Source: a virus. From it: a DNA stretch of 24,128 nucleotides. A model generated the notes under the pieces. That model had not been told where the DNA came from and did not search any database. It worked only from the letters and a program-made list of their open reading frames with translations. Every line of letters starts with the position of its first letter. The stretch's first letter is position 1. Positions 4,134 to 13,439 of the stretch are shown one piece after another. A program made the translations under genes and the position numbers. The stretch is from positions 1-24,128 of the IMG/VR virus record IMGVR_UViG_3300025138_000347. The stretch is one strand, 5' to 3'.

Positions 4134-4760
4134 TCAGAGAATTTCGTCGCCTTCTTCGGCACCTACCGGCGTGACTGCGTTCTCTGGTCGTTGCAGTCGC
4201 TTGTACGCTGCTTCCTTGTGAATGGCACCATCAAGACTTGACGGTCCAAACATCTCCCGGTGTTCACTAATTGAATCTGTGAACAACTGAGGATCACTGA
4301 AGTCCAAATCAATGCTCTTGAACTGAACTCTCTTGGTTCCATTCTTGTCAGTGACTCGTCCCGTCATAGGACATGTCACACATAACCCTTCGAACATCTT
4401 GCATTCTGCGGCAAGAGTGTCTCTGTCCATCGCCATGTAGTTTCCGAGATGGTCATCATCCACCCCAAGAGCAGACAACAAACTCTTGAGTTGAACCGCC
4501 CCAAGGTTCACTGCTACTCGCTTGATACGTCCTTCGTTGTCCACGACCTGTGCCACCGGCAACTTTGCTCCGATGGTGTAACTCCAGACCACGGCCTCAT
4601 ATGAATCTTTGCCGTCCGCCACATCTTGTGGGTGCTTGAAGATGAAGTTCGTGGTGTTGGCGTTGTTGGCACTAGCAGAAACTCGGGCCAGTGCCACTTC
4701 CGTGATATTCGGAACCATGAGAGAAACCGTACAGTCGTCCATCCAGTCAAGATTAGCCAT
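4134..4760 (-). CDS. Hypothetical early protein, possible single-stranded DNA-binding protein
   Basis: A 208-residue protein. The start ATG at 4760 is clear, with AGAAAGG (4767-4773) 6 nt upstream. The middle carries a helical segment (LKSLLSALGVDDDH) and a pair of cysteines (CVTC, plus one about 8 residues earlier), followed by beta-like strands (TKRVQFKSIDLDF). The C-terminus is acidic (EEGDEIL), a feature shared by phage single-stranded DNA-binding proteins, which use the tail to recruit the polymerase. Its place among replication genes fits that role. I see no diagnostic OB-fold motif, so the idea is weak. It sits directly after a terminator, so its expression may be set by readthrough. 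Confidence 0.7.
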   Translation of the reverse strand: MANLDWMDDCTVSLMVPNITEVALARVSASANNANTTNFIFKHPQDVADGKDSYEAVVWSYTIGAKLPVAQVVDNEGRIKRVAVNLGAVQLKSLLSALGVDDDHLGNYMAMDRDTLAAECKMFEGLCVTCPMTGRVTDKNGTKRVQFKSIDLDFSDPQLFTDSISEHREMFGPSSLDGAIHKEAAYKRLQRPENAVTPVGAEEGDEIL

Positions 4761-4790
4761 TGTATTCCTTTCTAAAAATACAATACTGAG

Positions 4791-4844
4791 AAAACCCCGC
4801 CCCACCGGGCGGCGGCAAAGCCGCGTCGCCCGGAGGGGAAGGGG
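4791..4844 (-). terminator. Long GC-rich intrinsic terminator, minus strand
   Basis: The minus strand folds into a long stem. CCGGGCG and GCGGC pair with GCCGC and CGCCCGG around a TTT loop, with a 2-nt bulge. Two more blocks of four C-G pairs extend the base, and TTTTCTC follows. It begins about 9 nt after the kinase stop. The next gene's ribosome binding site follows within 25 nt, leaving no room for a full promoter, so it probably acts as a leaky terminator or attenuator. Confidence 0.62.
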
Positions 4845-6083: not shown

Positions 6084-6299
6084 TCACTTAACGCCGTCGT
6101 CGACGTTCTTACCCCCCTTTACTGAGACCTTCCAGAAGTCGTAGGAGAGTTCACCGTTGTAGAGGGACAGTTTGTAAGCCTTACCTTCCACGATGATTAC
6201 GGAAGGGACTCCCGCCACGGCCAACTTCTCGATGACTCCCCCCTTCGCAGTGTGGATTTCACTGGGGATGGTTGCGATTTCGAAAGACGATGATGACAT
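6084..6299 (-). CDS. Small hypothetical early protein
   Basis: A 71-residue protein, not recognised. Two beta-like segments (KLAVAGVPSVIIVEGKAYKL and SYDFWKVSVKGG) suggest a small beta-rich fold, with Ser-rich residues at the start. The ATG has AGGAG 7 nt upstream, one of the strongest sites in this arm. It stands alone between the 478-bp repeat region and its own terminator, so it is probably transcribed from a promoter inside that region. High single-gene expression is plausible. Confidence 0.72.
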   Translation of the reverse strand: MSSSSFEIATIPSEIHTAKGGVIEKLAVAGVPSVIIVEGKAYKLSLYNGELSYDFWKVSVKGGKNVDDGVK

Positions 6300-6335
6300 G
6301 GCTATCTCCTAGATGCCAGTTATGGGAAACGACGA

Positions 6336-6375
6336 CCACTTTGGCCGTCTTGCGAGGAACGAGAGGCCAATGTGG
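6336..6375. repeat. 11-bp inverted repeat in leader of the 71-aa gene
   Basis: CCACTTTGGCC (6336-6346) and GGCCAATGTGG (6365-6375) are inverted copies with one mismatch and an 18-nt spacer. It may be an operator or an RNA hairpin in the leader. Confidence 0.5.
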
Positions 6376-6431
6376 ACGGCGATTCCATTAGGCTTTCGAA
6401 CTTTTCGGGCAGGTAAAACCACGAAGGTTCT

Positions 6432-6774
6432 GGTACCGCTACCGTGGGGTATAGGTGGGGGTGTAGTGGCCCCTACTTCGCTGTGCTAGCAGTAAGAGAA
6501 AGGCCCCTCCCGTATCAAAATCTTTTGCCCGGTACTTTTGGTACTAGTGTGGTACGCAGTTATCGCCGTTTTAGGCTTAATACAGGCGGTTGTACCAGAC
6601 ATACCGCATGTACCATGCTGCGGGCTATCCTTTATATCTCTCTTCTCTCTCTCTTAACTTTCTAAAAAGATGTGGTACATATGGTACGGGAGTAAAAAAA
6701 CGGCCTTCCCGTTGCCGAGAAGACCGCTTGGAGGGGTACCAGACCTGCCTAAAGATCTGGTACGGGTGTGGTAC
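6432..6774. repeat. Array of 11 GGTAC/GTACC half-sites (iteron-like)
   Basis: GGTAC occurs at 6432 (as GGTACC), 6531, 6540, 6551, 6674, 6683, 6735 (as GGTACC), 6759 and 6770, and GTACC at 6592 and 6610. Less than one would be expected by chance in this length on both strands. Several share a longer consensus TGGTAC, and neighbours are spaced 8, 9, 11 and 11 bp apart, close to one helical turn. One copy lies in the palindrome GCATGTACCATGC (6606-6618). Such spacing suggests a protein binding side by side on one face of the DNA. Confidence 0.7.
6694..6726 (-). terminator. Intrinsic terminator after the helicase gene, minus strand
   Basis: The minus strand reads CGGTCTTCTC and GGGAAGGCCG (10 pairs, two of them G-U) around a 6-nt loop, followed by seven T residues. 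It lies about 50 nt after the helicase stop. Confidence 0.87.
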
Positions 6775-6777
6775 TTG

Positions 6778-8166
6778 TTAGGACTTAAGGGCTAAACCCC
6801 TAAGGCCCCTTTTGCCACCATTGCCAATCCGTGCTTTGCGAAGATCCCAAGTCGTTCCTTCGACGAGGCGATGGATTAGTTGGTTCTGGCTAAGTGGGGG
6901 GACTTTGAGGTCCTTGCTCCATTCCCGCCAATGGGAATACAAGGCTTCGGAGGGAATAAACCCACCTTCTTTAGGCTCAAACTTATTACCTAAGAACTCA
7001 TCAACGGGGTTATTGACGGTGTGGTACTCATCAATAAGGCTAAGAGACCGCTCGGGCATAGGAAATTTCTGCTTGGGGTCATTCTCTTCTTCGATAGCCT
7101 GAGCCCCTCTCCAAGCCCAATAGGCAATTCCGGGCAATTCTTCAAGGAGTTGATCGGCTAGTCGGTAGTTTTCACGACCAGCAAAACTTACCGTGAAGGG
7201 GAGAAGTACCATCTTCCCAGACAGCCCGAGCCCCTTGTTGGGGAGACGCGGAATCTCGTTGGACTGCATGATCGGGACGGCGTCCACAACCACATTCCTG
7301 AGCGGCTGCTCGAACTTTCTGTTGATGGAGATGGGGTCTTTCCCCACAATCGACTTGAGGACTCTGCATGCTGCTTCACCCTCACGATTTGATATTTCAG
7401 ATACTTCATTGATTGCCATCACCCGTGCTTGTTCGATGCCCCAAAGCCCGAACTGACCAGCGATATCCTCAAGGCATGTACCCATATACGCCTCGCCAAG
7501 AAGGGCCTTGAGGACAGACATGATTGTACCTTTGCCCCCTCGGATCTTTCCATACATCAAGAACCATTTGGCATAATCTCTATGCGGCAAAAGGCAATAA
7601 CCAAACATCCGCTGCAAAAGGCAAGACCATTCAGGGTCTCCACCGCCCCATTCTTCTAGGCACTTGTCCCAAGTAGGACAAACGGCCTTTGAATCAAAGT
7701 CGCAAGGGAGAACATTTGGGTCAAAGAATGTTTCATCCCGGTCAAACATGTCTCCTGTCTTTGCATCAAGGATCGTATCGCCAAAAGAAATCAATGTATG
7801 CGTTGATTTTGTTTTGGGGGCCGTTAGCCATACAGGAGACTTTTCGTGTGGAAGAGTCTGCACTGCTTGCAACGCACGCATGACCCCCTGAACCTTGGGG
7901 ATATTAGGTGCAAATCTAACTTGTCTGGTTCCGGTCGCAGACGCTTGGGGGAAAGTGGTGTTTTCTAGCGAAACCCAAATTGCACTCTCAACCCACTCGC
8001 GGTCTCGTTGTTGCCAACGCTCTGCATACCATTCGTAAAAATTACCTCTCCAAAACCATAGTCCGTTTCTACCATTAGGGGTAGAGAAACGGGTCTGCAG
8101 CAGGTATCTTGCAACCTGCATGGGTTCTTGGGACGCTAGGGTAGGCGTTTGCGTCCTGCTTGTCAT
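6778..8166 (-). CDS. SF3-type replicative helicase (D5/P4-like)
   Basis: A 462-residue ATPase of helicase superfamily 3, as found in phage P4 alpha and poxvirus D5, which unwinds DNA at an origin. The Walker A motif is GKIRGGKGT (206-214), Walker B is VMAINE (249-254), and motif C is PIMQSNEIPRL (298-308), followed by GKMVLLPF. The C-terminal 90 residues (from about DEYHTVNNPVDEF) look like the winged-helix tail typical of these proteins. The first 180 residues show no clear primase motif. The start is ATG at 8166 with GGAGG 7 nt upstream. An in-frame ATG 21 nt earlier would place that site inside the gene. SF3 helicases often recognise repeats close to their own gene, which fits the array at 6432-6774. 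Confidence 0.88.
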   Translation of the reverse strand: MTSRTQTPTLASQEPMQVARYLLQTRFSTPNGRNGLWFWRGNFYEWYAERWQQRDREWVESAIWVSLENTTFPQASATGTRQVRFAPNIPKVQGVMRALQAVQTLPHEKSPVWLTAPKTKSTHTLISFGDTILDAKTGDMFDRDETFFDPNVLPCDFDSKAVCPTWDKCLEEWGGGDPEWSCLLQRMFGYCLLPHRDYAKWFLMYGKIRGGKGTIMSVLKALLGEAYMGTCLEDIAGQFGLWGIEQARVMAINEVSEISNREGEAACRVLKSIVGKDPISINRKFEQPLRNVVVDAVPIMQSNEIPRLPNKGLGLSGKMVLLPFTVSFAGRENYRLADQLLEELPGIAYWAWRGAQAIEEENDPKQKFPMPERSLSLIDEYHTVNNPVDEFLGNKFEPKEGGFIPSEALYSHWREWSKDLKVPPLSQNQLIHRLVEGTTWDLRKARIGNGGKRGLRGLALKS

Positions 8167-11295: not shown

Positions 11296-11530
11296 TATTG
11301 ACGGGTTCATTGGAAACCGGGAGCGGTTCGGGGCTTTTCTGTATCAAAGATACGTTCATCAAGATGAACCGACCAAGCACTTCTTCCGGGTCTTTGACGC
11401 CGTGCATCCGTACAGCCTTCTACGGAACGCAGATGTTTCCTTTGTAGCCATCATGGCAAGGATTGCTGCGATTGAACTCCTTGCCTCTGGAACTCTGAAT
11501 GCGAATCAAGAGAATAGAGACAAGGTCTGA
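11096..11530 (+). CDS. Hypothetical protein, large out-of-frame overlap with previous gene
   Basis: A protein of up to 144 residues in the +1 frame relative to the gene before. From about residue 40 it is well ordered, with helices such as LARSAGQVLFDLAINDIDGF and VAIMARIAAIELLASG. The start is GTG at 11096 with AAGGGA 6 nt upstream. ATG at 11226 would cut the overlap to 70 nt but has a poorer site. The first 40 residues from the GTG are Ser-, Pro- and Lys-rich and could be disordered. It overlaps the large terminase start by 32 nt. I do not recognise a family. Confidence 0.68.
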   Translation: MSASPAIKNSSQTSKPRPTEVTSRKNLTSQPSISPPQEEILKAMKGMGPMGLARSAGQVLFDLAINDIDGFIGNRERFGAFLYQRYVHQDEPTKHFFRVFDAVHPYSLLRNADVSFVAIMARIAAIELLASGTLNANQENRDKV

Positions 11531-13439
11531 GGGTAACGAACTCTTTCCGCTGCCTTCTGATTACATGGAATGTACGGAAGAAGGCCAAAGACAAGCCCGA
11601 ATTAATGCCTGTAGGCAATGGCTAGTCCCAGTAACGACCCCGCAAGACAAAGCGGATCGTTTTATTGGGGCTATGCTTTTCTTTGATCATTGGTATCTGT
11701 GTCCGGATGAAGCAGACGACTTCAACCCAATGTTCTATGACGAAGATCCAGTCCCCCTACCGGACGGACACTTGGGGATCTACAAGGAGTGGGCACAGAA
11801 CCGAGCGTCTATTGCCATTGCACCGCGAGGTTTTGCCAAGAGCAACTGCATTCGGAAGTCAATCCTTCTCCAGATGCTGACAAGGCCCGGCTACTCATTC
11901 ATCTACGCGACCTCCACGAACGACAACGCCAAGCAGACCGGCCAGATCATCAAGACGCAGTTCCAAGAGAACGCCCGCATCTTTGATGATTGGAGCCCTG
12001 AGTTCCCTGACAACCGAATTGTGCCTCGTCGTGGCGAAGCCTCCTTCGGCATCGAGTTGATGTATCTGAAGAACGGGTCGTGGTTCAGGGCGATCTCGTC
12101 TGAAAGTAGGCAGCGTGGTGGTCGCCCCCGCTGCTACGTCCTTGATGACCCCGAATATGACCCACGGGCATCAACCTCGATGTCTGTCCTGCGGTCATAC
12201 ATGGACACCCTGCTCTTCAAGGTGGTCATGCCCATGATCACGAGGCCCGGCACGAGTCTCCGATGGCTCGCTACCTTTGTGAGTCGTCGTCACTATGCGT
12301 GGTACGCCATGGAGACTCAGGAATCTTTAAAGGGCCTCAAGGCTAAAGATCCCCGATTCGATCACTGGTCACGCATGATCATCAAGGCTGCATATAAAGA
12401 CACTGATGATCGCCTTGTTTCTTGTTGGCCCGAGATGTGGCCGGTAGACCGCCAACAAAAAATAGATGATCCACGTCTTAAAGAACGAATCAGCCTTGAG
12501 GAGATCAAGGAGCAGATTGGTTCTGCAAACTTCTCTTCAGAGTACATGGCTGATCCCGGTTCTAGCGAAGATCAATTCTTCCCTGAGTTAGGGGATAGTC
12601 ATCGCTGGTGGCTTACAAGCATTGATGCGGCATACGGCACATCTCCTCGTGAATCTGCCACCTTGATTAATTGGGAGGATAAAGAAGGCAATACAAAGAA
12701 GATGCCTATTTGTGACTTCTTGAAAAACTCATGGCTGTTCATGACTATTGATACGTCTTGGACTTCAAAGGGTGATTCGGATTACAAGGTTGCAACGGTC
12801 ATGGCCGCAACTCCAGAGAATGAGTTGTTTGTTCTTGATATCTGGGGGGGGCAGTGCGACGAAAACACCCTTATCAAGAACGTATTTGAGATCGCAGATA
12901 AGTGGCGGGTTCCCTCAATCCATCCAGAAGTCGTCAGGCAAAGCATTGCTCTTTACCAAACGCTAGACACTCTTGTAAAACAACGGGCTACTGAGATGTT
13001 TGGGGTCGCACACTTGCCAAAGATCGTGCCGCTCAAAGTTGGGATGATGTCTAAGTCTTCTCGGATTGGGGCTCTTCAATTCCGTTTTGAGAACGGTTTG
13101 ATTAAGTTTCCTATAGAGAAAAGAATGGACCGCCATTGGACTAATCTGTTTGATCAAATTGAGCAGTTCAATCCTGAAGTCCCTGATGGCGGACTCGCTA
13201 AAGACGACCATCTTGATACTCTTTCAATGTCAGGCAATATCCTCAAGGGCAGGATTAGACGAGCCCCGGAAGATATGGAAGATGATAGGTCTACTGAAGA
13301 GCGTCTTCTTGACGGGGAATTAACTGACGAACAGGGCACTCTTCTTGCTTATAAGTTGAAGTCACTTAGTCCGGAGTTGATAAATGAACTACTCGCAAGA
13401 GCCGGAGATTGCCCCCCAGATGGAAAGAGCAGAGTCTGA
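11499..13439 (+). CDS. terL: Terminase large subunit
   Basis: A 646-residue DNA-packaging motor of the usual two-domain kind. The N-terminal ATPase has a Walker A-like APRGFAKS (108-115) and Walker B CYVLDDPE (212-219, the D/E pair acting on ATP). The C-terminal RNase H-like nuclease has its first Asp in FMTIDTSW (D418), a Glu near IHPEVVR (E477) and a final Asp in KDDHLDTL (568-575). The enzyme docks at the portal, pumps DNA into the prohead and cuts the concatemer. Length is typical. ATG 11499 overlaps the previous gene by 32 nt and has only a weak ribosome binding site, so coupling is likely. The C-terminal 70 residues are charged and specific to this phage. Confidence 0.95.
   Translation: MRIKRIETRSEGNELFPLPSDYMECTEEGQRQARINACRQWLVPVTTPQDKADRFIGAMLFFDHWYLCPDEADDFNPMFYDEDPVPLPDGHLGIYKEWAQNRASIAIAPRGFAKSNCIRKSILLQMLTRPGYSFIYATSTNDNAKQTGQIIKTQFQENARIFDDWSPEFPDNRIVPRRGEASFGIELMYLKNGSWFRAISSESRQRGGRPRCYVLDDPEYDPRASTSMSVLRSYMDTLLFKVVMPMITRPGTSLRWLATFVSRRHYAWYAMETQESLKGLKAKDPRFDHWSRMIIKAAYKDTDDRLVSCWPEMWPVDRQQKIDDPRLKERISLEEIKEQIGSANFSSEYMADPGSSEDQFFPELGDSHRWWLTSIDAAYGTSPRESATLINWEDKEGNTKKMPICDFLKNSWLFMTIDTSWTSKGDSDYKVATVMAATPENELFVLDIWGGQCDENTLIKNVFEIADKWRVPSIHPEVVRQSIALYQTLDTLVKQRATEMFGVAHLPKIVPLKVGMMSKSSRIGALQFRFENGLIKFPIEKRMDRHWTNLFDQIEQFNPEVPDGGLAKDDHLDTLSMSGNILKGRIRRAPEDMEDDRSTEERLLDGELTDEQGTLLAYKLKSLSPELINELLARAGDCPPDGKSRV

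Follow-up and report, generated by a model that had tools for sequence, protein, structure and literature searches.

What is the dense cluster of GGTAC/GTACC sites found immediately 3' of an SF3 helicase gene for, and which protein reads it? These questions are raised by a locus in a stretch of viral DNA of 24,128 nucleotides (IMG/VR virus record IMGVR_UViG_3300025138_000347), referred to here as the window. An earlier note on this sequence had counted eleven clustered half-sites in 343 bp, and the recount agreed, with 11 distinct GGTAC/GTACC places between positions 6432 and 6774. On the plus strand, GGTAC occurs nine times (at 6432, 6531, 6540, 6551, 6674, 6683, 6735, 6759 and 6770) and GTACC four times (at 6433, 6592, 6610 and 6736), two of the latter overlapping a GGTAC to give the GGTACC palindromes at 6432-6437 and 6735-6740, both already noticed. 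All 11 places fall within the 478-bp gap 6300-6777, which is bounded by the stop of the helicase gene on one side and on the other by a small gene that starts at 6299 and shares the helicase gene's strand. Dinucleotide shuffles of this gap (2000) averaged 1.5 such places and never exceeded 7, while the entire window holds 46 matches against a shuffle mean of 24.6 and maximum of 40. Adjacent direct neighbours are spaced by 9, 11, 9 and 11 bp; of the spacings first proposed (8, 9, 11 and 11 bp), those of 9 and 11 bp were thus borne out and that of 8 bp is absent. The palindrome reported at 6606 was recovered as GCATGTACCATGC at 6606-6618, with palindromic five-base arms flanking TAC, as was the pyrimidine tract containing TTTATATCTC inside the array. 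The parts of the locus, together with the other genes considered below, are as follows, in window coordinates.

6778 to 8166, minus strand: SF3 (D5/P4-type) helicase gene, counted from the ATG at 8166; proposed initiator
6778 to 7014, minus strand: C-terminal winged-helix domain of the helicase (last ~78 codons)
6811 to 6822, minus strand: wing-tip codons N-G-G-K, separating GTACC-type from GACC-type loci
6735 to 6774, minus strand: array block A, with GTACC at 6770-6774 and 6759-6763 and the GGTACC palindrome at 6735-6740
within 6735 to 6774, minus strand: inverted repeat GTACCAGA/TCTGGTAC in block A
6698 to 6729, minus strand: predicted intrinsic terminator of the helicase transcript, with a 14-bp stem, 4-nt loop and T run
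6674 to 6687, minus strand: array block B, a pair of GTACC half-sites at 9 bp, directed towards the core
6615 to 6673, minus strand: core of 59 bp, AT-rich (63%), purine-biased, containing TATAAA
6592 to 6614, minus strand: array block C, with GGTAC, a degenerate GGTAT and GGTAC at 9-bp steps, facing block B
6531 to 6555, minus strand: array block D, with three GTACC half-sites spaced 11 and 9 bp
6453 to 6527, minus strand: conserved element ATTTTGATACGGGAGGGGCCTTTC ... AGGGGCC, from an alignment of 23 loci
6432 to 6437, no strand assigned: outlying GGTACC palindrome, outside the layout conserved in relatives
11499 to 13439, plus strand: large terminase gene
1143 to 1466: small HTH protein
1729 to 1983: small RHH protein

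The persistence of sites and spacing in relatives had been proposed as a check, and related helicases were found in IMG/VR contigs plus one genome contig, giving 27 related loci of which a few are near-duplicates. The array lies 3' of the SF3 helicase gene in 26 of the 27, including L059, in which one inserted gene (4235-4805, the start of its product reading like a DNA methyltransferase) stands between the two. No such array was found downstream of the helicase in L036, the most distant relative (35% identity). That helicase is followed (4389-4640) by three copies of GGTAAC, with neither a GTACC nor a GACC array there; GGTAAC as a possible third site class was set aside, no relatives of L036 having been found.

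What is kept in the relatives is the layout, while the letters of the half-site have changed in some. Direct repeats 9-11 bp apart form two facing groups around an AT-rich, purine-biased core of 54-67 bp, in the order block A (three sites and then one in inverted orientation), block B (a pair of sites 9 bp apart), core, block C (opposed sites, two or three in number, at steps of 9 bp) and block D, followed downstream of the array by the conserved element, which begins ATTTTG in the 23 aligned loci. The B-core-C portion is readable in 24 loci, window included, and clades with only ~44% identical helicases share the layout >9> [54-67 bp] <9<9<. Block D is present in only part of the helicase family and is missing from the L054 clade. 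In the conserved element itself (6453-6527), a paired-stem test for RNA structure gave weak pairing support and no consensus fold.

Concerning the phages that carry the array, each of three long genomes (G001, G002 and G003) has a single dense cluster. Direct repeats at the ends of G001 (127 bp, perfect) and of G002 (100 bp, 99 of them identical) suggest that these are complete genomes of this phage group. No comparable array stands directly downstream of the related primase-helicases (22-30% identity) of seven cultured phages, and a comparison of the large terminase and the array with the phage collection gave no match. As tblastn of the large terminase found nothing in 50,697 phage records, the group is without a cultured close relative in that collection. 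The contig L066, from a Myxococcales MAG, has a helicase 83% identical to that of the window with the array present; it may belong to a phage and have been binned with the MAG.

The half-site reads YGACCA (Y = C or T) in L003, L005/L011 and the separate L054 clade and GTACCA in the other relatives, so that one layout occurs either with GTACC/GGTAC or with GACC/GGTC. The earlier note held that relatives keeping the helicase and lacking clustered GGTAC sites would speak against its reading: this is literally so for L003, L005 and the L054 group, in which the array nevertheless persists with a changed half-site. In the helicase alignment, the only columns separating the GTACC from the GACC types are four contiguous residues and one variable N-terminal column. 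The four residues, NGGK in the window, sit at the wing tip of the predicted C-terminal winged helix, and the third of them is G in 11/11 GTACC rows and R in 10/10 GACC rows. When control labels were used instead (other pairs of genus units plus the far clade), scattered columns were obtained, or many columns in the case of sister lineages. This covariation of wing and site supports binding of the iterons by the helicase C-terminal domain. A tree of the helicase built without the C-terminus needs three changes of site type. The sample holds only about three independent changes, one of them a recombination.

That recombination is found in L003, which resembles the GTACC-type L004 until about 100 nt before the helicase stop, and the GACC-type L005 from the wing codons through the array (75-94%, dipping to 71%). 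Wing and array therefore appear to have moved as one unit, L003 having apparently acquired both together by recombination. This joint movement is the strongest single argument for the helicase as the likely ligand.

The helicase belongs to the SF3/D5 type by its Pfam matches (DUF5906 with E 6.8e-11, D5_N above the cut-off, and Pox_D5), and its PHROG matches are DNA primase families; no primase domain was recognised in the protein. A model of the entire helicase, of moderate confidence (mean pLDDT 72), has SaPI5 Rep (7ola) as its best PDB fold match, with D5/E5 helicases also matched. As in P4 alpha, a C-terminal winged helix is indicated, here by AlphaFold2 topology (mean pLDDT 83 for the domain) and by Pox_D5 matches in 18/18 members of the helicase family. 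The best Foldseek matches of the domain model are RFX5 (8zjr) and RFX1 (1dp7), with the P4 origin-binding domain (1ka8) at rank 9 and weak (E 0.19). By Pfam, RFX_DNA_binding (PF02257) is weakly matched in 7/18 members (best E 0.0041), the window protein scoring 14.9 bits against a curated cut-off of 27.

The X-box half-site of RFX factors, GTNRCC, resembles GTACC. These factors are eukaryotic transcription factors, and RFX1 uses its wing, not its helix, to read the major groove (PMC4333399, PMC8998557). Such a reading agrees with the covariation seen at the wing tip, although the two together do not prove a shared binding mode.

A search by DNA layout only (GTACCANNNGTACCA, 40-70 bases, TGGTACNNNTGGTAC) returned 31 stretches. 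Matches inside Gly-Thr-Ser coding repeats, where codon usage mimics the layout, were removed; long open frames of such GGTACAAGT-like repeats were seen in L085, L086, L089-L091, L095, L099-L101, L105, L109 and L110. The non-coding matches include already known members as well as two further helicases of the window's family, both with the GG wing, as expected. In other matches, the layout comes 67-82 bp after the stop of a DUF5906 gene or of one of two VapE-like genes, or else 136 bp from the stop of a primase-family gene. In the L097 group (terminase6/P22-portal phages), a DUF5906 gene is found in the same record, not directly upstream of the layout. The match in L098 (3400-3700) is rich in GGTACT repeats.

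Taken together, the conserved position and layout of the array, the covariation of its half-sites with the wing tip, their joint recombination and the result of the layout search support what the earlier note had proposed, namely a putative origin, with the SF3 helicase, one of the candidates it named, as the ligand. From this comparative evidence we infer that the array 6531-6774 is very probably a replication origin, at which the adjacent helicase would bind the half-sites (GTACCA read towards the core) through its C-terminal winged-helix domain, with the wing tip reading the variable bases. Blocks B and C face each other across the AT-rich core, so that two helicase assemblies would form on them head to head, melt the core and start two forks. 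The core (6615-6673) is accordingly termed here a candidate unwinding region and/or promoter. A turn of GC skew at the array, which had been put forward as a further check, is absent in all four records (window, G001, G002 and G003). This result speaks against the origin reading, as do L036 and the seven cultured phages, where no such array was seen, the small number of independent changes of site type, and the L097 group, in which the helicase gene is not placed directly before the array.

The alternative that survives best, though improbable, is that the sites are operators, whereby a phage DNA-binding protein, possibly the helicase itself as autorepressor, would control the helicase gene and the downstream operon with no replication start. 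The TATAAA-like sequence in the core is promoter-like, so that a regulatory role is possible, and both the predicted terminator lying within the array and the gene beginning on the same strand at 6299 would fit such a role. However, it is the wing of a replicative-type helicase that covaries with the sites, the layout recurs next to other helicase families, and a consensus promoter scan of the gap 6300-6777 found no promoter. As for the small HTH and RHH proteins, which had been suggested as other possible ligands, no relative of either was recognisable in G001 and G002, the genomes with terminal repeats and a GTACC array, yet GACC-type G003 has relatives of both (65% identity for HTH, 32% for RHH). 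Although fast divergence could hide a homologue, the two proteins are unlikely ligands of the array.

Less probable still is an action at the RNA level, the inverted GTACC repeats forming hairpins or terminators of the helicase transcript. On the minus strand the gap does have a more favourable fold than its shuffles (z -4.3), and block A is a longer inverted repeat in several relatives, followed by a T run in L032; block A may double as a terminator. On the other hand, the majority of half-sites are repeated in direct orientation at intervals of 9-11 bp, a change of half-site goes with a change of wing, and the conserved element downstream has little pairing support. An Rfam search of the window gave no match. 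A packaging (pac/cos) site, to which the large terminase gene near the helicase gene and on its 5' side in relatives might point, is the least credible reading, given that the type of half-site tracks the helicase wing and that recombination moved wing and array together.

The proposed origin with its helicase has precedents in SaPI Rep, SCCmec Cch2, pRN1, P4 alpha and the initiator/origin swapping of PLE. For SaPI Rep, the passage of PMC7581432 citing Ubeda 2007 describes an origin of short repeats that directly follows the helicase gene and that the C-terminal domain of the helicase recognises. The present array shares the 3' position, and the best fold match of the helicase model is itself a SaPI Rep. 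It differs in its half-site (GTACC or GACC), in the RFX-like C-terminal domain whose wing tip covaries with the half-site, in the lack of a recognised primase domain, and in its carrier: as the window holds a large terminase and other virion genes common to relatives of 45-54 kb, it comes from a tailed phage and not from a satellite. In SCCmec, 5-bp AAGTG iterons downstream of the helicase are bound by the C-terminal domain of Cch2 (PMC7581432), whereas the array described here has many more sites in a two-sided facing layout around an AT-rich core.

P4 alpha (ori1/crr), which carries its own primase (PMC4234260), is likewise a D5/P4-type helicase, and its C-terminal winged helix binds the origin; Foldseek nevertheless places RFX above P4 for the domain found here. 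P4 has two separated repeat regions, ori1 and crr, while one cluster was found per genome in G001, G002 and G003, so there is no second crr-like array in them. The origin of pRN1 lies just downstream of the gene for ORF904, an SF3 helicase with a C-terminal winged helix, and is a stem-loop without iterons (PMC4234260), unlike the repeat-based array of the window, even if the gap folds as RNA better than its shuffles. In the PLE satellites of Vibrio cholerae, the DNA-binding domain of RepA and the origin covary and are swapped together (PMC8263062), much as the initiator's presumed DNA-contact element and the array change together here. The PLE initiator is however of the RepA_N type with larger semi-palindromic iterons, and the swap there concerns an entire domain, compared with the last codons of an SF3 helicase gene plus the array in the present case. 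Against this background, the facing layout in tailed phages, the narrow covariation at the wing tip and the joint recombination of wing and array are novel.

As a broader and more doubtful possibility, the facing GTACC layout could represent a widespread type of origin in phages, serving several unrelated helicases (SF3, VapE and primase-type), an RFX-type wing reading it in the window's family and a few wing residues switching between GTACC and GACC. If so, viral initiators and eukaryotic RFX factors would share a wing-reading mode and a similar half-site. The origins of uncultured tailed phages are rarely located, and here comparative sequence by itself gives a likely origin, a likely binding protein and the protein element likely to set its specificity. 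The wing element and the array moving together constitute a natural experiment by which a rule of recognition between initiator and origin becomes testable, and other phage genomes can be searched for origins by means of the layout.
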